The notes under the pieces are model-generated. The model worked only from the letters and a program-made list of their open reading frames with translations. It did not search any database and was not told where the DNA came from. A stretch of 64,000 nt of DNA from the IMG/VR virus record IMGVR_UViG_3300043778_000098, positions 1 through 64,000 of that record; one strand, written 5' to 3'. Positions 2-48,098 of this stretch are shown one piece after another (within the stretch, counting starts at the first letter, position 1; every line of letters starts with the position of its first letter). The DNA comes from a virus. The translations under genes were made by a program, and so were the position numbers.

Positions 2-664
2 GCCCCGCCCCCGGCGGGCGACGGGGGGGGGGGCCCCCCCGCCGCCCCCGACGACGACGGCTCGCCAGGCGGGGACGATGGCAAGGAAGACGATAGCGGC
101 TCCGGGCCGCCGCCGAAGGGCAAAGGCGGCAAGTCCAAGAAGGAGTCCCTGCGCAATATCTCCGTCCGCCGGTACCGGGGCGTCCGGGGGCAGCCCCTCA
201 CCGAGGAGCAGCTGGTCCGGCACATCGCCGTCGTCGCCTCCGGCGGCGACCCGGCCGTCATGGCCCGGCTGAGGGCGACGGCGGGGCGCCCCGCCCCGGC
301 CAGCCGCAAGGTCGCGGGCTTCTCGCCCGAGGAGCTGACCCCGCACTGCACCCTGAGCAGCGGCCACCAGGTGTCGATCGGCAGGCACGGCGAGGACTGG
401 TACGGGGTGATCAGCGCGCCGCACCCGTTCGCGCGGCACACGCACATGATGTACCTCGGCCGGGAGGACGACCCCCGCGCCGCCGCCGACCGGGAGCTGT
501 CGCGGGGGCCGGCCCGGAACTTCGTGCACTCCACCACCGACTACTCGGGCGCCGTCCCGGGCAACCCGGTGGAGGCCCCGGGCGCCGCGCCGGGCGCCTG
601 GTGGCGGAAGCCGAGCCAGGTCCGCGCCCCCGACCCCATCTTCCACAGCGCGTCGGCCGGGTGA
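2..664 (+). CDS. C-terminal part of an unknown protein (5' end outside window)
   Basis: The frame is open from the left edge of the window to a TGA at 662-664, so the gene starts upstream. The first ~40 visible residues are a Gly/Pro/Asp-rich linker, then a Lys-rich stretch, then about 170 residues of ordinary globular composition (motifs RNISVRRYRGVRG and GEDWYGVISAPHPFARH). I do not recognise the family. The next gene begins 3 nt after the stop, so it belongs to the same plus-strand operon. The low-complexity acidic linker resembles those of the large head-associated proteins further downstream, which suggests but does not prove a virion role. Confidence 0.6.
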   Translation, partial: APPPAGDGGGGPPAAPDDDGSPGGDDGKEDDSGSGPPPKGKGGKSKKESLRNISVRRYRGVRGQPLTEEQLVRHIAVVASGGDPAVMARLRATAGRPAPASRKVAGFSPEELTPHCTLSSGHQVSIGRHGEDWYGVISAPHPFARHTHMMYLGREDDPRAAADRELSRGPARNFVHSTTDYSGAVPGNPVEAPGAAPGAWWRKPSQVRAPDPIFHSASAG

Positions 665-667
665 GCG

Positions 668-1135
668 GTGGGCGCATGGGACCTGATCCGGACGGCCGCC
701 AGGGGGGACCGGCCGAGTTACGTCTACCACGGGTTCAGCGTCCGGCTGCCCCCGGAGGTGCACGCCCTCGTGCACGACGAGTCGCTGCCGGAGCACGTGC
801 GCGGCTTCCACCTCGCCCGCCACCTGCTCACACACAACCCCGTGGACTTCGGGTACCCGCACATGGGGGAGCTGCTCGGGCAGGACTGGCACCGCGACGG
901 CTGGCAGGCGGCCGAGGACGCCCGGAACGCGGACGGCCCGGGCCGCACCTCCTACGTCCTGAAGGCGCTGCACCCGGAGCCGGAGCACATCCTGTCCGAC
1001 CAGAACCGGAAGGGCCACCCGTTGCTCCTGCGCGCGGGGGCCCCGGTGCGCTTCGTCGGCCTGAACTGGGAAGACCACGCTAGCGGGGGCGACGGGGAGC
1101 TGGAGTTCCCCGAGCCGGTCACCGGGAGGGCCTGA
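668..1135 (+). CDS. unknown protein, first of a tandem small-gene family
   Basis: 155 residues from a GTG start 3 nt after the previous stop. It opens with MGAWDLIRTAARG, almost the same N-terminus as the next gene (MGAWDRIRRAASG), which suggests a duplicated leader segment. The rest (HDESLPEHVRGFHLARHLL) is not recognised. No signal peptide or membrane segment is visible. Its place at the end of an unknown operon and just before the ribosomal stalk genes gives no clear functional hint. Confidence 0.65.
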   Translation: MGAWDLIRTAARGDRPSYVYHGFSVRLPPEVHALVHDESLPEHVRGFHLARHLLTHNPVDFGYPHMGELLGQDWHRDGWQAAEDARNADGPGRTSYVLKALHPEPEHILSDQNRKGHPLLLRAGAPVRFVGLNWEDHASGGDGELEFPEPVTGRA

Positions 1136-1137
1136 CC

Positions 1138-1545
1138 GTGGGCGCCTGGGACAGGATCCGGAGGGCCGCCTCGGGCCGGATGCTGAGCGAGGAGGAGCAC
1201 CTCAGCGGGATCAGGGACGGAGTGGAGTCGCTCAAGCGCGCCGGGATGCTGCCGCCCGACGCGGACTGGCGCGGGCAGCCCGGCGCCAGGTTCGACACCG
1301 GCCACTACGTCGGCAGCGTGCTCAGCGGCGGGGACGGCCGCTGGACGACTTACATCCACCACGACTCCGACCCGTCCTTGAACCGGATCGTCCAGATCGA
1401 GCACGGAGACCTCGGCGGCGAGCACTCGCGCCTCGCGGAATCGGTGTCCCGCACTCTGCGCCGGCCCGAGGTCATGCAGTCGATGCGCGAGCAGATGCAG
1501 CACGGCGCCGCCGAGGAGCCGTCCTGGATCCGGAGGTTCGGCTGA
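1138..1545 (+). CDS. unknown protein, tandem family member 2
   Basis: 135 residues, GTG start 3 nt after the previous stop; its own TGA overlaps the next ATG by one base. The N-terminus repeats MGAWD-IR of gene 668. A central motif, DTGHYVGSVLSGGDGRW, and a C-terminal motif, EVMQSMREQM, recur in diverged form in the next two genes (METGHT; EVMERMREQM; ESGHTMDVAL). This points to local duplication. Function unknown. Confidence 0.65.
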   Translation: MGAWDRIRRAASGRMLSEEEHLSGIRDGVESLKRAGMLPPDADWRGQPGARFDTGHYVGSVLSGGDGRWTTYIHHDSDPSLNRIVQIEHGDLGGEHSRLAESVSRTLRRPEVMQSMREQMQHGAAEEPSWIRRFG

Positions 1546-1913
1546 TGGGGTACAACGACCGGCACTTCACCAGCCCGGACAGGATGCCGGGGCAGAGCCT
1601 GGAGCACTACCGGGACGACGTCGCCTTCCGGCAGCAGCTCGCCTCGGTATTCCAGCCCTTCGGGCCGCACAACGTCCGGATGGAGACCGGGCACACCCTC
1701 CTCCCCGTCACTCACGATGAGGCCGAGTCGTTCAGGGACGTGAGGGGGCCGCAGGTTATCGTCCAGCATCGCAACGACCCCGACTCGCCTATCGCCCTGC
1801 CACTCGGCCATGACCCCAGCCAGTGGATGGGCAACCTGATGAGGCACCTGAACGACCGCGAGGTCATGGAGCGGATGCGCGAGCAGATGAACGGCCGGTA
1901 CGGCGATGAGTGA
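1545..1913 (+). CDS. unknown protein, tandem family member 3
   Basis: 122 residues. ATG overlaps the previous stop (TGATG). It shares the TGH motif (RMETGHTLLPVTH) and the C-terminal EVMERMREQM helix with gene 1138. Charged and soluble, with no cysteine cluster or membrane segment. Function unknown; coupled translation with both neighbours is likely because the reading frames overlap. Confidence 0.65.
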   Translation: MGYNDRHFTSPDRMPGQSLEHYRDDVAFRQQLASVFQPFGPHNVRMETGHTLLPVTHDEAESFRDVRGPQVIVQHRNDPDSPIALPLGHDPSQWMGNLMRHLNDREVMERMREQMNGRYGDE

Positions 1914-2340
1914 GTACATTGACCAGGGGGAGATCGCACGGCGCAACGACCTGGCCAGGCACCACCTGCTGCGGTCCGGGATCCGCCTCAGGGACCTGCC
2001 GGCCGGGAGATCACCGGAGTGGGAGACCGAGTCGGGCCATACCATGGACGTCGCGCTGCACCCGCAGACCGGCGAGTGGACGATGGGCGCCACCCACTAC
2101 GGCGACCCGACCGGGAACGCGCTGCGGTCGATGCTCGGGACGCACGACGAGTCCGAGATACCGGGCAGGCTGTCGGCGGAGCTGCGGCACCGGGAGACCA
2201 CGGGCCACCTGCGCGACATGTGGCTGCGGGCGTCGGGCAACAACGACCCGACGGGGAGGGACGAAGAGGCGCAACGCGTCCCCAGGTACATGGCGGCGAA
2301 CCCGCAGACGATCTTCCTGGACCATTACCAGGGTCGCTAG
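1906..2340 (+). CDS. unknown protein, tandem family member 4
   Basis: 144 residues, overlapping the previous gene by 8 nt. It contains the family motif as ESGHTMDVALHPQTGEWTMG and a run of charged helices. It ends in a TAG 15 nt before the likely promoter hexamer of the ribosomal leader. Not recognised; kept because of the motif shared with genes 1138 and 1545. Confidence 0.65.
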   Translation: MSEYIDQGEIARRNDLARHHLLRSGIRLRDLPAGRSPEWETESGHTMDVALHPQTGEWTMGATHYGDPTGNALRSMLGTHDESEIPGRLSAELRHRETTGHLRDMWLRASGNNDPTGRDEEAQRVPRYMAANPQTIFLDHYQGR

Positions 2341-2355: not shown

Positions 2356-2444
2356 GGCACGGCCAGAGACCGCAGGCGCCTAAGACCTGCGCAGGTGACG
2401 CTAGCCCGCGCCATGGCGCGGGCTTTCGCTTTGAGGGGGCAGCG
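2356..2444 (+). promoter_or_regulatory. L10 leader-like ribosomal protein control RNA with attenuator
   Basis: The segment between the upstream gene and rplJ contains the L10-leader signature: CCAGAGACCGCAGG (2363-2376), a CTAAGA loop (2380-2385), then CCTGCGCAGGTG (2386-2397). CGCAGG at 2371-2376 pairs with CCTGCG at 2386-2391. It is followed by a 9-bp hairpin, AGCCCGCGC/GCGCGGGCT (2403-2424), and a T-rich tail TTTCGCTTT, the shape of an intrinsic attenuator, then a GAGGGGG ribosome-binding site at 2433-2439. In bacteria this leader binds the L10(L12)4 complex and feeds back on rplJ-rplL. A TAAGCT hexamer at 2350-2355 may be the -10. The match to the family is by eye. Confidence 0.82.
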
Positions 2445-2909
2445 GTGACGCCCGAGCAGAAGGACGGCTGGGTCGGCTGGCTGAAGGGGAAGCTCTCCGA
2501 TCGGCGGTTCATCGTCGTGGGGCACCATCCGGTGGACGTCGGCACGATGGCGGCGCTGCGCGCGTCGCTGCCGACGGGGACGGAGCTGCGGGTCGTCAAG
2601 GGGACCCTCGTCCGGCTGGCGGCCGGGCGGGCCGGGATGCCCGAGGTCCTCCCGCTGATCGCCGGGCCGACGGCCGTGGTCTTCACGGACGCCGACCTCG
2701 CCGTCGCCGCCGCCGCGATCGCCCGGAGTCCCGCCGTCACCGTGCGCGGCGCCGTCGAGGGGAAGCGGCTGCTCTCGCCGTCGCAGGTGAGCGCGATCGC
2801 GGCGATCGGCTCGCGGGAGCGGGCCCTGGCCATGGTGTCGGCGGCGCTGAGGTCGCCGGCGGCGAGGACCGCGACGGCCCTGCGGGCCAGGGGGAGGGAG
2901 ACCCGATGA
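2445..2909 (+). CDS. rplJ: ribosomal protein L10 (uL10), stalk base
   Basis: 154 residues from GTG at 2445, preceded by GAGGGGG. The sequence follows the L10 family: WLKGKLSDRRFIVVGHHPVDVGTMAALRASL, then LRVVKGTLVRLAAGRAG, then LPLIAGPTAVVFTDAD, a hydrophobic core, and C-terminal helices. In cells L10 binds 23S rRNA next to L11 and carries L7/L12 dimers on its C-terminal helix. It is slightly shorter than host L10 (about 165-180). It lies directly upstream of and overlaps rplL, in the usual rplJ-rplL order, and is preceded by an L10-type leader. It is surrounded by phage genes, so it is a phage-borne copy. Confidence 0.93.
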   Translation: MTPEQKDGWVGWLKGKLSDRRFIVVGHHPVDVGTMAALRASLPTGTELRVVKGTLVRLAAGRAGMPEVLPLIAGPTAVVFTDADLAVAAAAIARSPAVTVRGAVEGKRLLSPSQVSAIAAIGSRERALAMVSAALRSPAARTATALRARGRETR

Positions 2910-3283
2910 TGAAGCTGACCACGGCCGAGCTGATCGACGCGTTCAGGGAGATGACCATCCTGGAGCTGGGCGAGTTCACCGCCGCGTTCGAGGAGCAGTT
3001 CGGGGTGCAGGTCCAGGCATTCCCCGCGAACCAGGACGCGGCTCCTGCTGCGGACGTCCCCGAGGACGAGCAGACGGAGTTCGACGTCGTCCTCCGGGAA
3101 GTCGGCGCCCAGAAGATCCAGGTGATCAAGATAGCCCGCTCGCTGACCGGCCTCGGCCTGAAGGAGGCCAAGGACCTGGTGGAGTCGGCCCCCGTGACGC
3201 TCCTCAAGGGCGCCAGCGCAGGCGCGGCTGCCACGGCCAGGGCGGAGCTGGAGCTGGCCGGGGCGCTCGTCACCGTCAGCTAG
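2906..3283 (+). CDS. rplL: ribosomal protein L7/L12 (bL12), stalk
   Basis: 125 residues, close to the usual 120-130. The N-terminal dimerisation domain is clear (KLTTAELIDAFREMTILEL then FEEQFGVQVQAF), then an Ala/Pro/acidic hinge, then the complete C-terminal domain (EFDVVLREVGAQKIQVIKI, LTGLGLKEAKDLVESAP). That C-terminal domain recruits EF-Tu, EF-G, IF2 and release factors. The ATG at 2906 overlaps the rplJ stop (ATGA), so the two are translationally coupled. Both halves are intact, so the protein should be able to dimerise, bind L10 and recruit factors. The hinge is short and more acidic than in typical host proteins. Confidence 0.97.
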   Translation: MMKLTTAELIDAFREMTILELGEFTAAFEEQFGVQVQAFPANQDAAPAADVPEDEQTEFDVVLREVGAQKIQVIKIARSLTGLGLKEAKDLVESAPVTLLKGASAGAAATARAELELAGALVTVS

Positions 3284-3334: not shown

Positions 3335-5617
3335 ATGAGGGTTGCGTACAAGCCGGGCTCGGGGGCCGCTCGCCAGGCGTCGCTCGGCCGCCAGCTGGGG
3401 CGGACGATGGGGGTGGGCGCCGCCGCGTCGGAGCAGATGTCCGCCGACGTGCTGGAGGCGCGCAAGAACCGCCGCGTCAACGCCCGGGCCGCGTCGCTGG
3501 GGCGCCGGACGGCCGGGTACTCCACGGGCGGGGCGGGCGGGTCCGGCTTCTCCGACATCCAGTTCGCGACCGGGCGGCCACGCGACCCGCTGTTCTACTG
3601 GAGGCAGAACAACCTTCCGTATGACTTCTCGCAGAACGAGGAGCTTGCGAAAGTACGCGCGTTTTGCCGCCTGCTGTACCAGACCGACCCGATCGTCGGG
3701 TCGTGCGTCGACATCTTCAGCAAGTTCCCCGTGGTCGGCGCGCACCTGGAGTGCAAGGACAAGCGCCTGGAGGAGTTCTACGAGGACCACTTCTTCGGCG
3801 ACGAGGGCCTCAACTACGGCGAGTTCCTCGTGGACATCGGCCGCGAGTACTACACCACCGGCGAGTCGTGGCCGTTCGCCACCTTCAACGAGGACCTCGG
3901 CGTCTGGGACGACGAGGAGCTGCTCAACCCCGACGACATCAAGGTCGAGCGGTCCCCGTTCCTGAAGGAGCCCCGCTACTTCACCCGGCTGCCGTGGACG
4001 ATCCGGCAGATCCTCACCACCCGCCAGCCCGCCTGGGAATACGCCAAGCTCGTCCAGGAGTACCCCGAGCTGGCCGCCTACACCGCCGAGAACGCGTTCA
4101 TGCCGGTGTCCGGCGTGCTGCTGCGGCAGTTGCGGTTCAAGGGCGACACCTTCAACCTGCGGGGCCTTCCCCTTCTCACCAGGGCGATGCGGAGCATGCT
4201 CCAGCAGGAGATGCTCAACACCGCCCTTGACGCCATCGCCGACCGCCTCTACACCCCGCTCATCCTCTGCAAGCTGGGCGCTTCCGCCACCGACCTGGGA
4301 ACGAGCGTTCCCTGGATTCCGACGGATGATGACCTGGAGAACTTCGAGCTGGCTCTCGACGCGGCCCTGGCGGGAGATTTCCGCGCCCTGATCCACAACT
4401 TCGCGGTCGAGATGGAGCCGGTCTTCGGCCGCGAGAACATGCCGGACCTCACCCCCGACTTCGAGCGCATCGAGGACCGCATCCTCCAGGTGTTCGGCCT
4501 GTCCCGGACGTTCCTGACCGGCGCCGGGGAGGGCCAGACCTACGCCGCCGACGCCCTCAACAAGCAGCTGGTCGAGCAGCTGATGACGACCTACCAGCGG
4601 ATGCTCATGCGGCACGTCCGGCAGCGGGCCCTCATCGTCGCCGAGGCCCAGGAGCATTACGACTACGAGGAGCGGAACGGCCGCCGCTTCGTCATCATGG
4701 AGGAGGTCCTGGAGACCGACGAGGAGAGCGGCGAGAAGCGGATCACCGAGCAGCCCAAGCTCCTGGTGCCTGACCTGAAGTGCGCCGTCCTCAACTTCCG
4801 CGACGAGGACGTCACCCGCCAGTTCGTCGAGGCGCTGCGGGCGTCGGGGATGCCGATCTCCCAGCGGACCCGCAGCCGGGGCCTCGGGCTCGACCTCGAC
4901 GACGAGCGCGAGCGCAGCCAGGACGAGGCGGTCGCCGACATCGTCGCCCAGGCCAAGACCAGGCGGCAGGCGTTCGTCGAGCTGCGCAACGCCGGGCTGC
5001 CCGTCCCGGCCGACCTCATGCAGGACTTCGCGCCGCTCGCCCAGCAGGAGGGCGTGCCCCCGGCGGTCGCCGGCCAGCAGATGATGATCGACCGGATGGG
5101 GGCCTCCCCGGTCCCGCTGCCCGACCTGGCGCCGGTGCCCGCCGACCAGGAGCTGGCCGAGGAGGCCGAGGAGATGGCCGGGGGCCCGGTCAACGCCCCG
5201 CCCGAGGGCGAGGGGGACGAGATGCCGCCGCCGGGAGGGGGCATGGATCAGGTGCCGCCGGAATCCGGCGAGCAGCGCGGGGCCATGCCGAAGGCCGCCC
5301 GCCGGGGGATGCCGAAGCAGGGCGCGCTGTTCCGCCGGGCCGACCGGGTGCGCAGGACGGCGAGGCTCGCCCGGGCGGTCGACGAGGCCCGCGCCGAGGG
5401 CGAGGCCGCCGCGTCCGGCGAGGAGGGCTTCGCGGTGCAGGCCCACTTCTCCGAGTCCCAGGCGGAGGCGCTGGCCGGGCGCGGCGGGTGGGTGTCCGGC
5501 CCGGCGCTGCGCGCCTACCAGGACCCGGCGCACGTCGGCATCCGCGCCCGCCTCGGCGTCACCGAGGAGGACTCGCGCCTGGCCGACTACGAGGCGGTCT
5601 ACAGGCCGTCCAGGTAG
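3335..5617 (+). CDS. portal protein
   Basis: 760 residues from ATG at 3335 with an AGGGAGG ribosome-binding site. The middle of the protein has portal-like features: FWRQNN-type N-terminal segment, RAFCRLLYQTDPIVGSCVDIFSKFPVVGA, a clip/stem region (RIEDRILQVFGLSRTFLTGAGEGQTYAADALNKQLVEQLMTT as one continuous helix-rich block) and a long acidic/proline C-terminal tail. Portals form the dodecameric DNA gate of the capsid. Position at the start of the head module, upstream of protease and major capsid genes, fits. The call rests on the overall pattern, not on a single diagnostic motif. Confidence 0.8.
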   Translation: MRVAYKPGSGAARQASLGRQLGRTMGVGAAASEQMSADVLEARKNRRVNARAASLGRRTAGYSTGGAGGSGFSDIQFATGRPRDPLFYWRQNNLPYDFSQNEELAKVRAFCRLLYQTDPIVGSCVDIFSKFPVVGAHLECKDKRLEEFYEDHFFGDEGLNYGEFLVDIGREYYTTGESWPFATFNEDLGVWDDEELLNPDDIKVERSPFLKEPRYFTRLPWTIRQILTTRQPAWEYAKLVQEYPELAAYTAENAFMPVSGVLLRQLRFKGDTFNLRGLPLLTRAMRSMLQQEMLNTALDAIADRLYTPLILCKLGASATDLGTSVPWIPTDDDLENFELALDAALAGDFRALIHNFAVEMEPVFGRENMPDLTPDFERIEDRILQVFGLSRTFLTGAGEGQTYAADALNKQLVEQLMTTYQRMLMRHVRQRALIVAEAQEHYDYEERNGRRFVIMEEVLETDEESGEKRITEQPKLLVPDLKCAVLNFRDEDVTRQFVEALRASGMPISQRTRSRGLGLDLDDERERSQDEAVADIVAQAKTRRQAFVELRNAGLPVPADLMQDFAPLAQQEGVPPAVAGQQMMIDRMGASPVPLPDLAPVPADQELAEEAEEMAGGPVNAPPEGEGDEMPPPGGGMDQVPPESGEQRGAMPKAARRGMPKQGALFRRADRVRRTARLARAVDEARAEGEAAASGEEGFAVQAHFSESQAEALAGRGGWVSGPALRAYQDPAHVGIRARLGVTEEDSRLADYEAVYRPSR

Positions 5618-7642: not shown

Positions 7643-10600
7643 ATGCGAAGGCACTCGACCAGGCTGTCCCAGGCGCACGAAGAGGAGCCCGAGGACGACG
7701 GTCTTTCGCGCACCGCCGACCGGGACTACCCCGAGCTGGGCACCATCCTCGACGACCGGCCCGACCCCGGCGGCGTCATCACCGTCATCGGCGCCAGGCG
7801 GCTCGCGAACCTCTACGGCACCGACCAGGACGACCGCAACGGGCAGTTCAACGGCGAGCCCGGCGACGCCGGCATGTACTGGTCCGAGCCAGGCCAGCAG
7901 CAGTGGACGCAGGAGAACGAGCCGCAGGAGCCCGCTCCGCCGCCGCCGTGGGCCATGTCGCCGGTGATGGCCCGGCTGGCGGAGCTGGAGGAGGCCGCCG
8001 GGCTCATCGGCATGAGCCACCACGCCACCTCCATCAACGGCCAGCAGGTCGACGACCACGGCGACGCCCCGCAGCACGGCACCGTCCCCCGCGCGCAGGA
8101 CCCCGACTCCTACGACGACCGCTCCACCGAGGGCGACGGCGACCCCAAGTGGGACGACCCGCTCGACCCCGCCCACAAGGAGGAGTACAACGGGGCGACC
8201 GTCGGCATGTACCCCGAGGGCATCTCGGCGGGCGGCGGCCCCGGCATCTCCGTCGGCCCCGTCACGGCGGAGCTGAACCAGAAGGGGCAGAACGAGCTGC
8301 GCCGCCACATGGCCGAGGACCACCTGGCCGACCCGTCCTTGTGCGCCTCCTCCGAGATCCGCGAGCTGGCCGACGACCACGCCGCCGACCACGACTACGG
8401 CAACGCGGACCACGCGCACGGCCCCGACTACGACCACCGGCCCTTCTGGGACGAGGGCGCCGACGCCGGGCGATACCACGAGTTCACCGGCTCCAGGAGG
8501 ACCGCACGCGTGCCCTGGACCCCGGCCGAGCGCGGCACCCTGCACACCTGGCAGCAGGTGCCGACCGGCACGTGGGGCGACTTCGTGCCGTCGTCGGAGT
8601 TCCCGTTCCTGCGGCCGGGCGAGAGCCAGCACGGACCCGAAGAGGAGGACCTGCGTGCGGAGGGGAGCTGGGAGCCCTATGAGGCCGACGAATACGACTT
8701 CGCCGATAAGCCCAGCTACCAAGGCTGGCCGCAGTCCATGCCCGAGGAGTACGAGCCTCGCGACTGGACCGACATCGCCGACCGGGCCGACCACAGGAAC
8801 GACGCCGGCGGCTGGGTACACCACACGCTCAGCTCCCTGCGGGAGGGCGCCTCCGACGCCGAGGACCGCTACTGGCGGGCGCACCTGCGCGATCAGCACG
8901 GCTGGAGCGCGGGCCAGTTCGAGCGGGCCCGCCAGCGGGGCGACAGCCTCCCCGACATGCACGCGGCCGGGCACGAGGCGGGACTCGCCGGCCACCCGCC
9001 GCACGCCATCTCCGCCGAGCAGCGGCTCCGTGCGCAGCGCGACCTGGAGCGGGAGGACTCCCTCCGCAACATGTTCGGCCCGGACATCACCGAGGACAGG
9101 GCCAAGCTGAGGCCCGAGGGGTACGGGCTCGCCCATCCCGCACGGGGCGGCTATTCCGGCGGCGACCCGATGACGGCGATCATGACGTCCGGGGACCCGC
9201 GCCCGGTCGCCGACCCGTCGCACTGGGAGCAGGCCGACCCGGCCCGGTTCCGCCGCATGATGAGCGCCCTTACGGCGCACGCGCACGACGACGAGGGGGA
9301 CTCGCTCGATGACGGGCCGGCCTCCGGGGACTTCGGGGTCGGCGACGAGGAGGACGAGGACGGCCCGGAGGGATGGCCCGCCGCCGGGGCGGACGTCAGC
9401 GAGACCGGCCGGGCCATGACCCAGGGCCGCTACGACGGGAAGACCAGGCGGAGCGGGGACCAGGGGCACCTGGCCGCGTTCGTCGCCGCCTCGGGCAGCC
9501 CGTCGTTCCGCTTCCACTTCACAGCCTCCTGGCAGGACGTCATCGCCAAGGCGAGGCGGATCCGCGCCGACGGCCACGTCCGCATCACCCACGCCTCGGC
9601 GGGCCTGGTGATCGGCGAGGTGCGGGGCGATCACGACACCTATGAGACGGGCATCCAGCGCCCGGTTGGCAAGCGGCAGTCCATCCAGCACTGGGCCTGC
9701 GGCTGCCCGTGGGCGTCGTTCCACCAGAGCAGGACCGCCGCCAGGAGGCCCGGGGGCTACGCGGGCAGGCCGTGCTCCCACGTGATGGCCCTCCAGTTCG
9801 AGGCGCAGTCGCGGGGGATGTTCGGCCGGCAGTTCGGCGCGGACGAGAACCTCCCGTCGTGGTCGCCCCCGACCGTCGTCGTCAAGTCGATGCCGCCGTG
9901 GGAGGGCGAGCCGCACGCGGGACGGTGGCGCGAGGAGTGGCGCGCCCCGGTCGCCTCGATCCGGCGCGCCGCCACGCCCGACGAGGCGCGCGACGCCGAC
10001 TGGACGCCGGAGGACCGGGACGAGTGGGAGCGTTCCGGCGCGGTCGTCGGCTGGCCGTGCCAGCGCGCCACCGCCGCCCTCCTGCGATCCGGCGCGGACC
10101 CGGAGGAGGTCGACGCGCTCCGGGCGATCGCCGGGCTGGGGCCGGTCAGCGCCGACGCGGCGCGCTCCGGCGCGCTCCTGGCGCGCCACCTGACGGTGGC
10201 GCACGGCCTGCCGGAGGAGAAGGCGGCGGAACTGTGCCGGGACGTCCCCGGCGCTCTCGGGTGGCACGGGGCGCTCCACGAGGCGCGCGCCGCCGTGGCG
10301 ATCCCGCACCGGCACGAACCGCCCGGCGCGCCCGGCGCGGGGCTGCTTCCGGTGGAGGGTCTCCGTGTCACCGCCGACGGCGCGAACGGGCCGTGGGGGA
10401 GCGACAACACCGTCTCGCACCCGCCGCAGAAGCCCTACGGCGCGACGTCGCCGCCGGATAAGGACATGGACCCGGGCAGCTACGGGCCGCTCGCCGCGCC
10501 CGACCCGGAGAACTGGGGCCGCATCGACGCGGGCGACGTCTTCCAGATGCCGATCGGCAACACCGCCGCCGTCCGCCCCGTGCCCGGCGACCTGCACTGG

Positions 10601-11683
10601 CCGGACCAGTCCCAGGACGAGCAGGGCACCTTCAGCTACCAGGACCGGGCCGCCGCCGCCGGGCCGTCAACCGCGATGACCCCGCGCGACCCCAACGGCA
10701 TCCGGATGGAGGAGACGCGAAGAGACTGCCCCTGCTGCGGCGGAACAGGCGAGCACAACACCGGCCGGGAATGCTACGGGTGCGACGCGAGCGGAAGCGC
10801 CGACGGGTATTCCGGGCAGGTCCCGTGCGACGGGACTAAGCCCTACGGCGTTGACAGCGAAGGCCACCAGGTCGAGCTGGACCCGCTCGACGGATGGCAG
10901 CATCTGGACGGGTCCGTCTCCCATGACGACGGGAGCACAGTCAGCGATCATCCCGTCCGCGCAGAGCTGCGCGACGAGCCCGAGGCCGCCCTCCCCTCGA
11001 CCACCGGCGACGACCTGGAGGCGACGGCCGCCGCCGACGGCACCATGGGCGGAGGCGACGCCGGGGACGGGGCAGCCCAGGAGGCCCCGCTGGACGTCGC
11101 GTCCCTCGGCGAGTTCGGGGCGTCGGCGCGGGAAGAGTTCCGCCGCAAGTTCGGCGGCCCGACGGCGATGGGCGACCGGTCGGTGGCCGAGGGACTGTCT
11201 GGCGGGGCGCAGGAGCCCCCGGTGACCGGCCAGCAGCCGGGCATGGGCTCGATGGACGAGCCGCTGACGCCGGACGACCAGTCGATCCAGACGATCGGCG
11301 GCCAGCAGTGGTCGGGCGGCGGCGCAGACTCCGACGAGGTCGAGGTCGAGCCCGGCCAGCCGCAGGGCGGCATCGACGACATCGTGGCGTCGTTCCAGCG
11401 CTCGGCGGCGGCCAGGGCCTACGCCGGCGGGGGCGCGGCGGGAGGGGGCGCTGCGGCCGGGCCCGGGGACATCGCCGGGGCCGCCCGCGCCTACCTGGCG
11501 AAGACGGCCGAGGTCCTCCCCCAAGCCGAGGCCGACGAGCTGATCCGGGAGGGGCGCGGCCAGCGGGCGCGCAACCTCGACCTGCTCGACCTGGAGGGCA
11601 CCCACTACGCGGACGCCGACGAGGAACTCGGCAAGAAGGGGCTGAGCATGGACGACCACGACGATGACGTGATCTTCGCGTGA
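7643..11683 (+). CDS. giant head-module protein with SWIM and DnaJ-type zinc fingers
   Basis: 1,346 residues; ATG at 7643 is chosen because it follows the CCCGGGAAG core and a GAGGGAGG site. The protein is acidic, His/Asp-rich and largely low complexity. About residue 680-720 it has a SWIM-type zinc finger (CGCPWASFHQ, then CSHVMALQFE: CxC...CxH). Near residue 1030-1050 it has a DnaJ-like cluster (CPCCGGTGEH, CYGCDASGSA). Both are nucleic-acid or protein-binding folds. It sits between portal and protease, so an internal head or packaging-related role is plausible but not shown. The long ORF has strong third-position GC throughout. Confidence 0.7.
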   Translation: MRRHSTRLSQAHEEEPEDDGLSRTADRDYPELGTILDDRPDPGGVITVIGARRLANLYGTDQDDRNGQFNGEPGDAGMYWSEPGQQQWTQENEPQEPAPPPPWAMSPVMARLAELEEAAGLIGMSHHATSINGQQVDDHGDAPQHGTVPRAQDPDSYDDRSTEGDGDPKWDDPLDPAHKEEYNGATVGMYPEGISAGGGPGISVGPVTAELNQKGQNELRRHMAEDHLADPSLCASSEIRELADDHAADHDYGNADHAHGPDYDHRPFWDEGADAGRYHEFTGSRRTARVPWTPAERGTLHTWQQVPTGTWGDFVPSSEFPFLRPGESQHGPEEEDLRAEGSWEPYEADEYDFADKPSYQGWPQSMPEEYEPRDWTDIADRADHRNDAGGWVHHTLSSLREGASDAEDRYWRAHLRDQHGWSAGQFERARQRGDSLPDMHAAGHEAGLAGHPPHAISAEQRLRAQRDLEREDSLRNMFGPDITEDRAKLRPEGYGLAHPARGGYSGGDPMTAIMTSGDPRPVADPSHWEQADPARFRRMMSALTAHAHDDEGDSLDDGPASGDFGVGDEEDEDGPEGWPAAGADVSETGRAMTQGRYDGKTRRSGDQGHLAAFVAASGSPSFRFHFTASWQDVIAKARRIRADGHVRITHASAGLVIGEVRGDHDTYETGIQRPVGKRQSIQHWACGCPWASFHQSRTAARRPGGYAGRPCSHVMALQFEAQSRGMFGRQFGADENLPSWSPPTVVVKSMPPWEGEPHAGRWREEWRAPVASIRRAATPDEARDADWTPEDRDEWERSGAVVGWPCQRATAALLRSGADPEEVDALRAIAGLGPVSADAARSGALLARHLTVAHGLPEEKAAELCRDVPGALGWHGALHEARAAVAIPHRHEPPGAPGAGLLPVEGLRVTADGANGPWGSDNTVSHPPQKPYGATSPPDKDMDPGSYGPLAAPDPENWGRIDAGDVFQMPIGNTAAVRPVPGDLHWPDQSQDEQGTFSYQDRAAAAGPSTAMTPRDPNGIRMEETRRDCPCCGGTGEHNTGRECYGCDASGSADGYSGQVPCDGTKPYGVDSEGHQVELDPLDGWQHLDGSVSHDDGSTVSDHPVRAELRDEPEAALPSTTGDDLEATAAADGTMGGGDAGDGAAQEAPLDVASLGEFGASAREEFRRKFGGPTAMGDRSVAEGLSGGAQEPPVTGQQPGMGSMDEPLTPDDQSIQTIGGQQWSGGGADSDEVEVEPGQPQGGIDDIVASFQRSAAARAYAGGGAAGGGAAAGPGDIAGAARAYLAKTAEVLPQAEADELIREGRGQRARNLDLLDLEGTHYADADEELGKKGLSMDDHDDDVIFA

Positions 11684-14256: not shown

Positions 14257-17200
14257 GTGCTCAAGTACGCGGCGCTGGAGATGCTCGACGCGTGGCGCCA
14301 GCCGACGGCGGGCGGGATCTCCCGCCTCGCCCACCGGGTCGCGTTCCACTACGACCCGCGCCCCGGCTACCTGTACGTCCGCTCCCGGATGATCTCCAGC
14401 CGGACCAACGACAACCACGACACGTTCCCCGCCGGGGAGATCGAGAAGGGCTACACGACCTTCCTCGGCAAGCCCGTCTTCGTCAACCACAACAACGCCA
14501 ACCACCGCAGGGCCCGTGGCGTCATCGTCGCCGTCGCCCTGCACCGCGACCGCACCCGCGACGGCAGCCCCGACACCTGGGTCGAGGGCCTCATGGAGGT
14601 CGACGCGGTCAGGTTCCCCAAGCTGGCGAAGGCGATCCTGGAGGGCAGGGTCAACCGCACCAGCATGGGCGTGGACGTCGACTGGTCCACCTGCTCGGCC
14701 TGCGGCAACAAGGCCACCTCCCCGGCCGAGTACTGCAAGCACCTGCCCGCGATGAAGGGCCGGAAGATCCGGCAGCGGAACGCCAAGACCGGCAAGGTGG
14801 AGGAGCGCCTGATCCACGAGATCTGCGCCGGGCTCAGCTTCTTCGAGAACTCCCTGCTGGTCGAGGACCCCGCCGATCCCTCGGCCTTTTTGCTCGGGGA
14901 GCCTGACACGCGAGGGCTACACATGTCTCCACGTTCGGCCAGCTCGAATCCTGGAGATCGCCGCGCTCGAAACGCCGTAACGCCCGGCGATGTCCAAGAG
15001 GCTGAGCTGGCCTCGCTTCGCACATCCGTTGCCGGTCGCTACCAGGGGCAGAAGTTCGTATTTGATGACCCGGACGTCGGCGTCGGTGAGTTTGACAGCC
15101 GGGTTGCGTACGCCCGGCAGGCTGCGCCCCTTGGCCACCATGTCGGCCGAGTTGACCGCGTTGGTGCCCAGGAACCAGTGCATGGAGTTCATGCAGATCT
15201 TGAAGTCGCACGAGTGGCAGACGACAAAGCGCGGCGGAATAGGCCCTCGCAGCAGCTTCCAGCCATAGCGATGCGCGCGGACGCTCGTCCGTCTCGCGTC
15301 CGCCAGAGAGAAGCGCGGGTACCCGCTGTCGAAGGTTCCGCCCGTCCACGGGTTGCAGAAGCCAGGCCCTGCGCTGAAATCGATCAGCGCGAAGTACCGG
15401 TCAACCTCCGACACCGTTCTTACGAATCGTCCGTCCAGTTCACACCTGCCGACCATGGTGTTAATCATAGCCGAGAACCGGACGCACGGGGCATGGAGAA
15501 GGCCGCCGGGCTCCGCCCGGCCCAGGCCCGCCCGGCCCAGGCCCGCAGGCCGTTCGGCGAGCTGGCGCCCCACGAGCAGCAGGCGGTGGCCCTCTACCAC
15601 CGGCAGATGCTCGAAGAGGGGAACGCCCCCCAGGGCAGCACCACCGGCGACTACCTGTACGAGCCCCGCCAGGAGCCCAGGGGCGACTTCATCAACCGCT
15701 ACATGGACGCCGACGACGAGTTCAAGCGGGAGTACGGGCGCGGGGCGGCCGACTGGGAGGCCCACCACCAGGACACAGTGGCCCGCCACCCGATCCCCGC
15801 CTACCCGCCCGAGGGCCGGTGGCCGCTGATCGTCAGCGACGCCAACCCGAACTACATCGACGACGGCTACCACCGGATGCACTCCTACATGCGGGACGGC
15901 GCCACCGAGATCCCCACGATCAGGATGCACCCCAAGAGGGCCTCGAAGACGGCCGCCGCCGGGGACCCCGACTTTAGGGACCTCATCCCCAATTCCTGCA
16001 CCCAGTGCGGGAAGCCGGTGCACTACCGCCCCGGCGCCGGCAGGAACGGCACCTACCCGTGGCGGCACCGGCACCAGGCCATCGAAGACCACGCCGCCGT
16101 CCCGTCCAACCCCGACGACAGGCGGCCGTCGCAGAACGCCACCTTCGGCGGCACCACCTGCCTGATGTGCCACGAGCCGGTGAAGATCAACCTGAACGCG
16201 CTGGACACCGACACCGGCGGCTGGCACCACCACGACGGCATGAAGCGCGACCACCCCGCCATCCCGAAGGACGCCCGCGCCGTCTACGACGCCATCCCGG
16301 GCATCAGGGCGCAGCATGACCAGGCCCGCCAGCAGATCCGCGAGCACCTGCACCGGCAGTTCGAGCAGATGGAAGGCAGGCCGCTGCCCCGGCGCCCGAG
16401 AGGCGACGAGGACCGGATGCCGCCCGACCCGTTCACGGCCAGACGCAAGAGGGCCAGGCGCCAGGCCGCCGGCCGCTTCCGCGAAGAGTTCACGCACTGC
16501 TCCAATTGCGGGGTCCCGCTGCTGGACGCCGACGACATCAGCGCCGCCGACTCGCCCGGCGACTGGTCGCACCACGGCTACCCGCACCTGTGCATGAACT
16601 GCGCCATCGGGCCGATCTCCGACGAGGGGACCATCCCCGGGACTCCCGGCAAGCCGCACCCGATCTTTCCGGGCAACAAGGGCGGCTATCACCTTCGCCC
16701 GGGGCTGGCAGGCGACCCCATGCCCACCGACCGCCTTCCCGAGAGCTACCGGAACTGGGAGCCGGGCGACGCGGTCCGGCAGTCCACGTCGAGCCGGAAG
16801 ACGGCCTACGGGGAGACCCGCGTGCCGCCCCAGGTGGACACGCTGCGGATGGACGAGTGCCCCGTCTGCGGCGAGCACAACGTGTGGTCGGGCAGCCGGT
16901 GCCCGGTTTGCGGCTTCGTGGTGCCGCCCAGTGTCTTCCGCGATCCCGACACCGACAAGGCGCGGCAGGTGCGCGACCAGCTCGACGCCGACGGCGAGGT
17001 CACCGAGGACCCGCAGGACCCCCAGGGCCAGGAAATGGGCGAGGAGGAGCAGATCGGCAGCGGCGATGACGCCGACGACCAGCTCACCCACCCGGACCAG
17101 ATCGCCCCGGACGGGGTGCCGGTCGTGCAGGGCGAGGGCGGCCCGGTGCCCGGCGAGGAAGAGGGCGCGCAGGCGGGGCCGCCCCCCGAGGAAGAGGGCG

Positions 17201-18453
17201 AAGAGCAGGGCGAGCCCGGCGGGATCCCCGGCGACGCCGGCGAGGAGGGCGGCCCTCCCGTGGACCAGGAAGAGGAGCCAGGCGACGAGCTGGAGTGCCC
17301 CGCGTGCGGCACCACGTTCGAGACCGACGCCTACGCCCAGCCGGGCATGCCGTGCCCCGCCTGCGGCATGGCCAACCTCCACCCGATCGACGAGAGCGGC
17401 GAAGACGGGGAGTTCCCGCCCGATGACGGCGACCCTGACGGCGAGGAGGAGGAGGGCGACGGCCCCCAGAAGGATCAGGAAGACGATCCGTCCGCTCCGG
17501 GAGACGAGAAGGAAGAGGACGAGGACATGCCAGCAAAGACAGGCGCCGCGCTCATGCAGGCCCAGGCGCGGAGGATCGCCGAGCAGTCGGCGATGATCGA
17601 GGCGCTGTCGGCCCAGCTGCGCTACCTCGCCTCGGCCGCCGGGGTCGGGCGGGAACTCGACGAGGTCGGCCGCAGGGTGATGCGGCGCCACGCCGACATC
17701 ATGAACCCGGCCAGCCCGGTGCCCGACCCGCCCGAGGGGCCGCCGTCGGAGACCACCGAGCAGGCGCTGATGCCGGAGGCGATGGACGACCCGTCGCGCC
17801 CCGGCGCCACCCCGGGCGCCAACTCCCGGGTGCCGGCCGCGCAGACCACCACGGCGATCACCCCCGGCGTGGAGATGCAGACGCCCCCGGCGACCAACCT
17901 GGTCGACGTCACCGCGCCGGTCCAGGGCACCAACCCGTCGCAGGACGGCGGCGTGCCGATCGAGCAGCGCAGGATCGAGACCGATGTGCGCATTGACCCC
18001 GACCCGCTGAAGGCGCACGGCCCCGGCATCGGCGGCCAGGGCGACAACGGCGCCGCGTTCCCGTGGATGCTGGACGCGCGGATGCCAGACCAGGGCGGCC
18101 AGCCCGGCCAGGGCCAGCGCGCGGCGTCGCTGCACTCGCAGCCGGGCGAGGCGGAATCCTCGCGGCGCACCTTCGGGGCGATCCGCCTGGCGAGGCTCCG
18201 GGTCCAGGCGGGCCTCGCCCAGGGCGACGAGCTGGCCGTAGCCGAGCGCATCGAGAGGGACGCCTCCCTGTCCACCGCGATGATCGAGCACGACATCTCC
18301 ACTCTGGAGCAGGTCGGGGCTGTGGCCCGCCCCCAGGCCCCTCTCCAGCGGCAGGCGGCCCGCTCCGCCCCGTCGCTGGCGTCGGTGGGCGCGGCCAGCC
18401 AGTACGCCCCGGCCGCCGCCGACGACCTCGACGGCTCGGACCTGTTCCTGTAG
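14257..18453 (+). CDS. capsid maturation protease fused to zinc-ribbon and scaffold-like regions
   Basis: 1,398 residues from GTG 14257, preceded by CTCCCCCGGAAG and GGAGGGG. Residues ~1-215 resemble prohead proteases: YLYVRSRMISSRTNDN, FLGKPVFVNHNNANHR, GVIVAVALHRDR, LEGRVNRTSMGVDVDW. The frame then passes antisense through an HNH gene (14917-15456). From ~430 it continues with a ParB/sulfiredoxin-like stretch (PLIVSDANPNYIDDGYHRMH), five CxxC zinc-knuckle pairs (e.g. CPVCGEHNVWSGSRCPVCG), an acidic spacer and a coiled-coil C-terminus like a scaffold. Position between portal and capsid fits a protease-scaffold. Catalytic residues cannot be assigned by eye. Whether the antisense segment is translated is open. 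Confidence 0.65.
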   Translation: MLKYAALEMLDAWRQPTAGGISRLAHRVAFHYDPRPGYLYVRSRMISSRTNDNHDTFPAGEIEKGYTTFLGKPVFVNHNNANHRRARGVIVAVALHRDRTRDGSPDTWVEGLMEVDAVRFPKLAKAILEGRVNRTSMGVDVDWSTCSACGNKATSPAEYCKHLPAMKGRKIRQRNAKTGKVEERLIHEICAGLSFFENSLLVEDPADPSAFLLGEPDTRGLHMSPRSASSNPGDRRARNAVTPGDVQEAELASLRTSVAGRYQGQKFVFDDPDVGVGEFDSRVAYARQAAPLGHHVGRVDRVGAQEPVHGVHADLEVARVADDKARRNRPSQQLPAIAMRADARPSRVRQREARVPAVEGSARPRVAEARPCAEIDQREVPVNLRHRSYESSVQFTPADHGVNHSREPDARGMEKAAGLRPAQARPAQARRPFGELAPHEQQAVALYHRQMLEEGNAPQGSTTGDYLYEPRQEPRGDFINRYMDADDEFKREYGRGAADWEAHHQDTVARHPIPAYPPEGRWPLIVSDANPNYIDDGYHRMHSYMRDGATEIPTIRMHPKRASKTAAAGDPDFRDLIPNSCTQCGKPVHYRPGAGRNGTYPWRHRHQAIEDHAAVPSNPDDRRPSQNATFGGTTCLMCHEPVKINLNALDTDTGGWHHHDGMKRDHPAIPKDARAVYDAIPGIRAQHDQARQQIREHLHRQFEQMEGRPLPRRPRGDEDRMPPDPFTARRKRARRQAAGRFREEFTHCSNCGVPLLDADDISAADSPGDWSHHGYPHLCMNCAIGPISDEGTIPGTPGKPHPIFPGNKGGYHLRPGLAGDPMPTDRLPESYRNWEPGDAVRQSTSSRKTAYGETRVPPQVDTLRMDECPVCGEHNVWSGSRCPVCGFVVPPSVFRDPDTDKARQVRDQLDADGEVTEDPQDPQGQEMGEEEQIGSGDDADDQLTHPDQIAPDGVPVVQGEGGPVPGEEEGAQAGPPPEEEGEEQGEPGGIPGDAGEEGGPPVDQEEEPGDELECPACGTTFETDAYAQPGMPCPACGMANLHPIDESGEDGEFPPDDGDPDGEEEEGDGPQKDQEDDPSAPGDEKEEDEDMPAKTGAALMQAQARRIAEQSAMIEALSAQLRYLASAAGVGRELDEVGRRVMRRHADIMNPASPVPDPPEGPPSETTEQALMPEAMDDPSRPGATPGANSRVPAAQTTTAITPGVEMQTPPATNLVDVTAPVQGTNPSQDGGVPIEQRRIETDVRIDPDPLKAHGPGIGGQGDNGAAFPWMLDARMPDQGGQPGQGQRAASLHSQPGEAESSRRTFGAIRLARLRVQAGLAQGDELAVAERIERDASLSTAMIEHDISTLEQVGAVARPQAPLQRQAARSAPSLASVGAASQYAPAAADDLDGSDLFL
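14917..15456 (-). CDS. HNH/AP2-type homing endonuclease nested antisense in the protease ORF
   Basis: 179 residues. Features of free-standing phage HNH enzymes: CNPWTGGTFDSGYPRFSLAD, RAHRYGWKLLRGPIPPRFVVC, CDFKICMNSMHWFLGTNAVN, a C-terminal helix-turn-helix (LLDIAGRYGVSSAAISRIRAG). The start is set at ATG 15456 because TATGAT lies 7 nt upstream (15464-15469), the leaderless pattern of this phage; an ATG at 15468 lies inside that hexamer. It occupies almost the whole insertion in the protease ORF, so there is no room for an intron ribozyme. Confidence 0.8.
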   Translation of the reverse strand: MVGRCELDGRFVRTVSEVDRYFALIDFSAGPGFCNPWTGGTFDSGYPRFSLADARRTSVRAHRYGWKLLRGPIPPRFVVCHSCDFKICMNSMHWFLGTNAVNSADMVAKGRSLPGVRNPAVKLTDADVRVIKYELLPLVATGNGCAKRGQLSLLDIAGRYGVSSAAISRIRAGRTWRHV

Positions 18454-46009: not shown

Positions 46010-46032
46010 CTCAACGGCGGGAACATCAGGGC

Positions 46033-46105
46033 GGGGCTGGCCAGATTCGAACTGGCGACAACCCGCTTAGGAGGCGGGTGCTCTATCCGGCTGAGCTACA
46101 GCTCC
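46033..46105 (-). tRNA. tRNA-Arg(CCT)
   Basis: Clover-leaf with anticodon stem CCCGC/GCGGG and loop CTCCTAA; reads AGG. One acceptor mismatch (position 3:70). Confidence 0.9.
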
Positions 46106-46110
46106 ATGGA

Positions 46111-46181
46111 GGCGGTAACCAGAGTCGAACTGGTGTGACGCGCTTTGCAGGCGCGGGCCTGGGCCGCTCGGCCATACCGCC
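46111..46181 (-). tRNA. tRNA-Cys(GCA)
   Basis: Anticodon stem CGCGC/GCGCG, loop CTGCAAA; reads TGC. Acceptor GGCGGTA/TACCGCC. Confidence 0.9.
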
Positions 46182-46341
46182 GGGTAACTGGGCGCCTCCC
46201 CGTCCTATCCGCCGGGCGGTGCCCGGTTCTCCCTTCGTCCGGCCGTTCATGGTTCGGGGACTGGTCAGGGGGCTGTTGTAACCGGGTTTGGATCCCCGGC
46301 GACCTGGGAGGCGCAACCGCCCAGGCTACTCTCGGCAGGAG

Positions 46342-46392
46342 GCCGGCAGGGGGCTTAGCCCGAAGGCGGTGTAAGCCTGCTCGCCTGCCGGC
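46342..46392 (-). ncRNA. inverted-repeat RNA element in the tRNA array
   Basis: GCCGGCAGG/CCTGCCGGC closes the segment; inside, GGCTTA/TAAGCC and a GCC-TTCG-GGC hairpin with a UUCG tetraloop. No tRNA T-arm. Confidence 0.4.
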
Positions 46393-46397
46393 CTGGC

Positions 46398-46468
46398 GTC
46401 CCCAACAGGACTCGAACCTGTGCGCGCGGCTCCGGAGGCCGCAGCTCTATCCGCTGAGCTATGAGGAC
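46398..46468 (-). tRNA. tRNA-Arg(CCG)
   Basis: Stem GCGGC/GCCGC, loop CTCCGGA; reads CGG. Acceptor GTCCTCA/TGGGGAC. Confidence 0.9.
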
Positions 46469-46480
46469 CCGGCATAGCCA

Positions 46481-46542
46481 GGCAGGGACCGCGCAGACTC
46501 CAGGAGACCCTGCGGGCGGCGGGCGCCATTTAGTTCCCTGCC
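46481..46542 (-). ncRNA. inverted-repeat RNA element in the tRNA array
   Basis: GGCAGGGA/TCCCTGCC (8 bp) closes 62 nt with no ORF or T-arm. The same closing stem recurs at 46888-46990. Confidence 0.35.
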
Positions 46543-46549
46543 CGGCCGA

Positions 46550-46629
46550 GGCGGCACCAGGTGTCGAGCCTGGTCTGTCGGAGACAACGGTTTTACGGAC
46601 CGCCGGGCGTGCCGCCGCCCACTACCGCC
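46550..46629 (-). tRNA. tRNA-Tyr(GTA)
   Basis: Long variable arm as expected for bacterial Tyr; loop CCGTAAA gives GTA but with C at position 33 instead of U. Acceptor GGCGGTA/TGCCGCC. Confidence 0.85.
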
Positions 46630-46637
46630 ATGTAGAC

Positions 46638-46732
46638 GATGAGCACACCGGGCGCGAGGCCGGCGATCTCCAGCTCCGCGAGAGCGTTAAATCCGGCTGC
46701 GCTGGCGTGCTGCGTATTGCACTATGCTCACC
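46638..46732 (-). ncRNA. inverted-repeat RNA element in the tRNA array
   Basis: GGTGAGCA/TGCTCATC (8 bp, one G-T) closes a 95-nt spacer. No ORF or T-arm; internal hairpins are possible. Confidence 0.4.
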
Positions 46733-46737
46733 GCCGA

Positions 46738-46809
46738 GGGTCGCACGGGATTCGAACCCGTCAATAACGGCCTCACAAACCGCTGCCTCAGCCACTTGGC
46801 TCGCGACCC
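46738..46809 (-). tRNA. tRNA-His(GTG)
   Basis: Loop TTGTGAG; reads CAC. T-arm GGTTCGAATCC intact. Confidence 0.88.
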
Positions 46810-46811
46810 GG

Positions 46812-46884
46812 TGCCCGATGGGGGACTCGAACCCCCGGCATCCTCGGTGTGGGCGAGGCGCTCTCCCGCTGAGCTAACCGGACA
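46812..46884 (-). tRNA. tRNA-Val(CAC)
   Basis: Stem CCTCG/CGAGG, loop CCCACAC; reads GTG. C33 instead of U33. Confidence 0.88.
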
Positions 46885-46887
46885 TGG

Positions 46888-46990
46888 GGCAGGGAAAGGG
46901 ACTACTCGGCCGGCCTCGCCTTTCGTCCCCGGGCGTTCCTTCCCGACGGCTGACCACGTGTTTCGGCACGCTCCGGCCTTACTCCCTGCC
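46888..46990 (-). ncRNA. inverted-repeat RNA element in the tRNA array
   Basis: GGCAGGGA/TCCCTGCC closes 103 nt; an inner CGTG-CCGAAA-CACG hairpin is visible. Same closing stem as 46481-46542. Confidence 0.4.
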
Positions 46991-46994
46991 TTGT

Positions 46995-47065
46995 GCGCCC
47001 GGAGGGAATCGAACCCCCACACACGGTTCCGTAGACCGCAGCTCTATCCGTTGAGCTACGGGCGC
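46995..47065 (-). tRNA. tRNA-Arg(ACG)
   Basis: Stem GCGGT/ACCGT, loop CTACGGA; A34 likely modified to inosine; reads CGT/C/A. Confidence 0.9.
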
Positions 47066-47073
47066 GTACTGGG

Positions 47074-47099
47074 GCGGCCCGGCTGCGCAGCCGGGCCGC
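47074..47099 (-). terminator. perfect GC hairpin between tRNAs
   Basis: Palindrome GCGGCCCGGCTG/CAGCCGGGCCGC. Could be a processing signal or a terminator; no T-run. Confidence 0.45.
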
Positions 47100-47101
47100 T
47101 A

Positions 47102-47178
47102 AGGGCAGGCGGGACTCGAACCCGCATGCGTGGTCTGACATACCGCGCGTCAACGTCTGCCGATTTCGCCACTACCCT
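47102..47178 (-). tRNA. tRNA, isotype uncertain
   Basis: Acceptor AGGGTAG/CTGCCCT and T-arm GCGGG/CCCGC are good. The D-arm (TGGCGAAATCGGCAGACG) is Leu-like. The anticodon arm folds poorly: one option gives GTC (Asp) with a mismatched stem, another CGG. Confidence 0.6.
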
Positions 47179-47183
47179 CCCGT

Positions 47184-47254
47184 GGGCGTACCTGGATTTG
47201 AACCAGGGACCTCTTCCGTGTCGGGGAAACGCGCTTCCGCTGCGCCACACGCCC
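47184..47254 (-). tRNA. tRNA-Val(GAC)
   Basis: Loop CCGACAC; reads GTC. C33. Acceptor GGGCGTG/TACGCCC. Confidence 0.88.
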
Positions 47255-47257
47255 ATC

Positions 47258-47331
47258 GATCGCCGCCTGTTCAGTCTCAGGTCCGTCCCGTGGGATGCGA
47301 GCCCCGGTTGCGCCGGGGAGTCGCGGCGATC
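47258..47331 (-). ncRNA. inverted-repeat RNA element in the tRNA array
   Basis: GATCGCCGC/GCGGCGATC (9 bp) closes 74 nt; an inner CCCCGG-CGCAA-CCGGGG hairpin. No T-arm. Confidence 0.45.
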
Positions 47332-47403
47332 ATGCCCGGGGATTCGGAGAACCTTGTCCCGGATCGATCCAGGAACGCGCCGCCCGGTCGGCGCATATGC
47401 AGG

Positions 47404-47423
47404 ACTCTAGCAACAAAAGCTGT
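47404..47423 (-). promoter_or_regulatory. promoter-like element inside the tRNA array
   Basis: Minus strand ACAGCTTTTGTTGCTAGAGT, hexamer TAGAGT at 47404-47409 (plus ACTCTA), same as the phage CTTTCYTTG element. It would drive the tRNAs from 47335 downward. Confidence 0.55.
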
Positions 47424-47434
47424 CTTCGTCCAGC

Positions 47435-47509
47435 GGTCGAGACGGGATTCGAACCCGCGATGCCCTCCTTGACGGGGAGGTGGGGACGGCCAGGCTCCCC
47501 TACACGACC
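47435..47509 (-). tRNA. tRNA-Asp(GTC)
   Basis: Stem CCTCC/GGAGG, loop CCGTCAA; reads GAC. C33. Confidence 0.88.
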
Positions 47510-47598
47510 ATTGACGCCGATATTTCGGGTCCCCGGTTTCCCGTGCTATCGGAGCACGGGACCTGAGGCCGCGTTCTTCGCCTCGGCGCGGGCGAAGC

Positions 47599-47669
47599 TC
47601 CGGAGTTCAGACTCGAACTGAAAACCCTCCGCTTAACGGGCGGACGCTCTGCCATTGAGCTACACCGGA
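47599..47669 (-). tRNA. tRNA-Asn(GTT)
   Basis: Stem TCCGC/GCGGA, loop CCGTTAA; reads AAC. C33. Confidence 0.9.
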
Positions 47670-47912: not shown

Positions 47913-47916
47913 TTGG

Positions 47917-48095: not shown

Positions 48096-48098
48096 GGG

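Follow-up and report, generated by a model that had tools for sequence, protein, structure and literature searches.

The DNA analysed here (the window, 64,000 nucleotides) is the first part of IMG/VR record IMGVR_UViG_3300043778_000098, which has 79,503 bases and 70% G+C and belongs to the IMG/VR class without end repeats (often a fragment). Between a short phage gene and the portal gene lie two genes encoding homologues of the ribosomal stalk proteins uL10 (L10, RplJ) and bL12 (L12, RplL), preceded by a leader-like RNA element and a terminator-like hairpin (Table 1). The two frames follow the rplJ-rplL order of hosts, overlap by 4 nt as ATGA and end 51 nt upstream of the portal gene; coordinates and profiles agree with an earlier note on this DNA, which had described overlapping L10 and L7/L12 frames in that order ahead of the portal. 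The bounds it gave (2445-3283) hold for the genes, while at the upstream end the feature extends to about position 2362 to take in the leader-like RNA and the terminator. In 23 of 23 host loci rplJ and rplL are separated by gaps of 14-124 nt and do not overlap. Third-position GC is 0.97 for L10 and 0.94 for L12, alongside 0.92-0.96 for the neighbouring phage genes.

Table 1. Features of the stalk-gene cassette, its flanks and the tRNA array, by position in the window
Feature	Position	Strand	Details
Left-flank phage gene	1906-2340	+	homologues 47-95 nt before the portal gene in four relatives' loci (empty site)
Miniature rplJ-type (L10) leader	2362-2403	+	5' strand GACCGCAGG (2368-2376), CTAAG in loop, 3' strand GCGCAGGTGA (2389-2398)
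Intrinsic-terminator-like hairpin	2403-2424	+	AGCCCGCGC/GCGCGGGCT, then TTTCGCTTT; 9 pairs, 8 of them G-C
Shine-Dalgarno-like GAGGGGG	2433-2439	+	from sequence; 5 nt upstream of the L10 start
uL10 (RplJ) homologue, 154 aa	2445-2909	+	GTG start, TGA stop; PF00466, NF000955, phmmer, AF2
bL12 (RplL) homologue, 125 aa	2906-3283	+	ATG start, TAG stop; dimerisation domain at the N-terminus, factor-binding domain at the C-terminus
Phage portal gene (right flank)	3335-5617	+	ATG at 3335; phrog_2833, E=1e-140
39 tRNA genes in one array	46029-53174	-	ARAGORN; all 20 amino acids; further translation genes of this phage

The L12 frame matches TIGR00855 with 115.2 bits (cut-off 84.4) over residues 1-124 of 125, and scores 83.1 bits against PF00542 and 39.4 bits against PF16320, both over their cut-offs. 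It keeps 41 of the 51 positions that are invariant in 23 actinobacterial L12s. Residues K70, I71, V73, I74, K75 and R78 and the run L83-E93, which we take to be the factor-binding residues of the C-terminal domain, are all identical to the actinobacterial invariants. In a phylogenetic tree the protein groups with 25 Actinomycetota L12s and three viral L12s (support 98/84), and by sequence the gene is actinobacterial in origin, while its long branch (0.95, against a median of 0.12) leaves the exact place unsure. The nearest cellular L12 among the matches listed is at most 59% identical, and nearer relatives may exist. A C-terminal domain of this kind could bind factors off the ribosome, and the pair might serve a non-ribosomal use such as an L10-L12 trap for host translation factors, or an unrelated function; a soluble trap, however, would need neither L10 nor an rplJ-type leader, and we regard this explanation as highly improbable.

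The L10 frame matches PF00466 with 51.8 bits (E=8.8e-14; cut-off 22.8), so the significant profile match on which the earlier note had made its L10 claim depend is present, and all three Pfam families it had proposed for a search (PF00466, PF00542 and PF16320) are matched over their cut-offs. The score against NCBIfam NF000955 is 69.6 bits, under the equivalog cut-off of 85. A search with a profile of exclusively cellular L10s picks it out as the sole matching open reading frame of the window (E=5.8e-23), and a phmmer search of the PDB returns M. smegmatis uL10 as the best match (E=6.6e-11). An AF2 model computed with host L10s as the alignment (pLDDT 83.8) superimposes on the uL10 of 5o60 with a TM-score of 0.84 on the target and an rmsd of 2.0, and also matches 1zav (E=1.1e-7). 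Because the fold is not recovered when the alignment is withheld (pLDDT 42.1), the predicted fold agrees with the sequence evidence but is not independent of it.

L10 is about 30% identical to the nearest cellular L10s among the matches listed. Relative to 23 actinobacterial sequences, 22 of 45 invariant positions are kept and 23 are changed: the TEYRGL motif is replaced by VGHHPV (0 of 6 kept) and the N of KNTL is also lost. These lost positions may touch rRNA; archaeal and eukaryotic uL10/P0 are likewise not known to have YRGL, yet bind the same rRNA site. Ten columns are invariant across 21 aligned L10s with the phage protein among them. Actinobacterial hosts have a longer C-terminal helix; in the phage protein helices are predicted at residues 124-136 and 138-152 (model confidence 53-73), and known L10-L12 structures suggest that this shortened region would bind fewer L12 dimers. 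The full-length matches reported for both proteins are thus borne out for L12 and not for L10, with its short helix and altered invariants.

The unequal retention of invariants in the two proteins (22/45 in L10 vs 41/51 in L12) could indicate a passenger or a decaying capture in which L12 may still serve while L10 drifts and no longer works, and five other viral records (L002-L006) do carry a full or nearly full L12 without L10. Yet both frames are intact, they overlap as ATGA where every host examined has a gap, their third-position GC is phage-like and the leader strands described below have been retained, and we consider decay unlikely.

Upstream of L10 the elements occur in the order leader strands (within 104 nt), terminator hairpin with T-rich tail, and Shine-Dalgarno sequence. 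A GACCG[CT]NGG strand together with a C-G-C/T-AGG strand lies upstream of rplJ in 23 of 23 actinobacterial loci examined, and the phage strands, compared by eye, are nearly the same as in all 23. The phage element is shorter, at 42 nt vs 61-115 nt in hosts, both inner hairpins being missing. A covariance model (R1) built from the 23 actinobacterial rplJ leaders, with the phage left out, ranks the phage leader first in the window (28.0 bits, with a rough E-value of 4.2e-5 given the short calibration; next best 19.0 bits). The model's own training leaders score 42.5-77.4 bits and other bacterial loci up to 34.8, while its best score on 26 other viral stretches without L10 (25 other records and the rest of the present one; 531,554 bases) is 16.2 bits. 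The bipartite leader pattern matches once in the window and in none of 100 shuffles. Across IMG/VR the same pattern occurs in at least 119 stretches, and since neither L10 nor L12 was present in any of the 80 loci examined, so short a pattern lacks specificity by itself when a large collection is scanned. RF00557, which we take to be the Rfam L10_leader family, has no match in the window; as none of 20 actinobacterial rplJ loci match it above gathering either, Rfam is blind to the actinobacterial form of this leader.

The minimum-energy fold of positions 2362-2432 consists of the leader stem and the terminator (-33.5 kcal/mol). When 2338-2447 is folded the 5' strand pairs with the start region instead, with an ordinary energy (z 0.15). 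By our own rule a terminator-like hairpin precedes rplJ in 19 of the 23 host leaders. At least 6 pairs can form between the 3' strand of the leader and the terminator in 17 of these 19 leaders, and 7 in the phage; shuffled controls often reach 6 pairs in several host leaders, and we make no claim for an antiterminator. No sigma-70-like promoter could be identified. As a group, the 23 actinobacterial rplJ leaders look like attenuators with an L10 site, possible antiterminator pairing and a terminator, and a new leader model for actinobacterial rplJ could be built from them, no Rfam family scoring above gathering in 20 such loci.

Since L10 identity has fallen to about 30% while the leader strands have stayed close to those of hosts, continued selection on L10-RNA recognition is suggested, and this kept leader beside a much-diverged protein is the strongest hint that such recognition still matters. 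In bacteria, as described in parts of PMC4538822, the L10(L12)4 complex binds a kink-turn and unpaired UAA of the leader that mimic its site on 23S rRNA, such binding promoting termination in B. subtilis. Like the B. subtilis rplJL leader set out there, the phage element has an L10 target stem carrying UAA, with an intrinsic terminator between this stem and rplJ, but it spans only about 42 nt and its L10 site is a putative one. From the near-identity of the leader strands, cross-regulation with the host operon would be expected.

The same near-identity to 23 of 23 host leaders would also suit a takeover of the host through this switch, in which the phage complex binds the host rplJ leader and stops host stalk synthesis, ribosome binding being secondary or absent; the loss of part of the conserved L10 surface points the same way. 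However, an intact L12 factor-binding domain would be needless for repression alone, and because ribosome stalks are long-lived the shut-off would act slowly. We judge a role chiefly through this switch to be quite unlikely.

The closest known arrangement is the actinomycetotal rplJ-rplL operon, with which the cassette shares gene order, the L10 and L12 families, a leader of the GACCGCNGG...CGCAGGTG kind and a terminator before rplJ. It differs from that operon in having no rplK-rplA or rpoBC neighbours, in the gene overlap that takes the place of the 14-124 nt host gap, in the absence of inner hairpins from the leader, and in an L10 of about 30% identity with a shorter C-terminal helix.

The surrounding DNA is that of a phage. 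Structural genes in the record include those for the portal, major head protein, tail sheath and cement protein. The portal is 39.6% identical to portals of cluster C mycobacteriophages (Bxz1/Myrna type), and the capsid up to 59%; Gordonia phages are also among the nearest. On this evidence the source is a piece of about 79.5 kb of a myovirus akin to cluster C mycobacteriophages, and, given these nearest relatives, its host is likely an actinobacterium. Cluster C phages also share the tail sheath and a large tRNA set with the present phage, but give no tblastn match to L10 or L12. The tRNA array counts 34 members above gathering with the Rfam tRNA models vs 39 with ARAGORN. Neither the window (ARAGORN) nor the rest of the record yielded a tmRNA, unlike two cluster C genomes whose abstracts report one.

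Closer relatives in IMG/VR (33 records behind 35 handles) reach 84% identity in the portal and 98% in the capsid, and their pre-portal DNA is homologous to the window on either side of the cassette. In four of their loci (L104, L112, L107 and L108, of which L104 and L112 are identical in sequence at this site) the portal begins 47-95 nt after the end of the homologue of the 1906-2340 gene. In the window the same interval is 994 nt, all but 51 nt of which is taken up by leader, L10 and L12, so that the 943-bp cassette is extra DNA relative to the empty site. PF00466 is matched in 0 of the 33 relative records, many of which are fragments, so that absence from any one record is no proof, and PF00542 in 1 of 34 (the 33, many fragmentary, plus the present record), namely the present one.

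A contig joining host and phage DNA by mistake, which the earlier note had named as the other outcome that would undo its claim, is argued against by these flanks and by the empty site. The cassette is known from a single contig, and such errors are common elsewhere: all 8 of the L10-containing INPHARED records that were examined are mislabelled bacterial fragments. On the other hand, the cassette has phage DNA with homologues in relatives on both flanks, sits exactly at the site that is empty in relatives, and lacks L11, L1 and rpoB as neighbours; each of the two proteins is also remote from all cellular homologues among the matches listed (L12 at most 59% identical, with a branch of 0.95). 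We therefore reject contamination, on the phage flanks, the empty site and the divergence of both proteins, and consider an assembly chimera or cellular contamination unlikely, the least probable of all the explanations weighed here.

Searches for other phage L10s covered several collections, from which near-copies of the window's genome may have been left out. A tblastn search of 50,697 phage records with the phage L10 gave no match. Cellular L10 queries against INPHARED matched 14 records; eight were examined and rejected as phage L10s, rplA adjoining rplJ in each of these bacterial fragments, and the other six include two labelled as Salmonella genomes. Three IMG/VR scans with a few peptide patterns, which can miss divergent L10s, gave no confirmed relative, none of 16 further viral records in which L12-like matches occur has PF00466, and a fold search of BFVD with L10 returned nothing at E<=0.001. 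The family phrog_31116 matches the phage L10 but matches cellular L10s far better, and we discarded it as evidence of a phage L10 family. The view that L10 and L12 together are not a known phage module has thus held up, with no counterpart in INPHARED, the three IMG/VR scans, BFVD or the literature searched, and by these searches the uL10 of the cassette is, from its sequence, the first genuine phage uL10.

Viral ribosomal proteins have been described before. The main-text portions of PMC6375957 report 14 of them, with 8 contigs carrying two each, and mention uL10 only as a host stalk component; viral bL12 was found in ribosome fractions, while attempts to purify ribosomes with the tagged viral protein failed. 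S4, S1, S21 and L7/L12 are named in parts of PMC7162821, and S21 or L12 in parts of PMC6802176. The cassette thus shares a virus-encoded bL12 with the phages of PMC6375957 and PMC7162821, and differs in its uL10, not named as viral in those portions. Microcystis phage PhiMa05 also encodes several ribosomal proteins, uL11 being part of the stalk base, but the six given in the corresponding part of PMC13157829 include uL11 and uL1 without uL10 or bL12.

Taken together, we favour the reading that the cassette is a phage-borne rplJ-rplL stalk operon of actinobacterial origin whose self-regulated L10-L12 complex is placed on host ribosomes, and give it a probability of roughly 0.6. The operon would have been captured from an actinobacterium and shrunk to phage size, keeping leader RNA, terminator, L10 and L12. 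We infer that the genes are expressed during infection, that the phage thereby makes its own L10-L12 complex, and that this complex binds ribosomes and regulates its own synthesis. L12 dimers would attach to the C-terminal helix of L10, and L10 would dock onto host 23S rRNA at its kink-turn region, a contact made plausible by the retained leader RNA and the predicted fold. Ribosomes would thereby gain a phage-type stalk to which host translational GTPases would still be recruited. Free L10-L12 would bind the leader, favour the terminator and so cap its own supply, as in bacteria. More tentatively, with odds somewhat short of even, phage-type stalks on host ribosomes would come with their own control element and, since the phage leader matches that of the host, host and phage stalk synthesis would be tied into one feedback loop.

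By carrying both L10 and L12 the phage may refit the ribosomes of its host, and might replace the host stalk as the earlier note had suggested. Most viral ribosomal proteins known so far occur singly, are loosely bound and exchangeable; here the anchor and the factor-recruiting arm occur together, and both halves of the stalk come with an apparent regulatory RNA that would measure their supply. The long-standing idea of phage-specialised ribosomes could thus be directly tested in one small cassette.

Several further observations were made in the window and in the loci compared. The run of short genes before the portal (window 260-2340, and relatives L118 and L121) contains partly paralogous-looking members that are reshuffled or multiplied among relatives, one of them being matched as many as five times in a single relative's locus, and looks like a variable cargo slot. 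Between portal and capsid, two genes on the + strand encode very long proteins of 1346 aa (7643-11683) and 986 aa (15493-18453), the latter with a weak double zinc ribbon match.

Stand-alone L12 genes were seen in other genomes. Three viral contigs of about 150 kb (L002, L003 and L004) share with the window an actinobacterial-type viral L12, and differ from it in having no L10 and in forming one clade (100/100) on a separate tree branch; the capsid profile of the cluster C type finds no match in them. In a 529-kb viral jumbo contig (L006), whose capsid matches phrog_2522 (E=4e-54), the gene beside a stand-alone L12 resembles, by eye, aspartate transcarbamoylase. Finally, two Nocardia genomes (L166 and L169), whose retrieved loci showed no L10, carry L12-like genes that pair on a tree branch of their own and may be second L12 copies.
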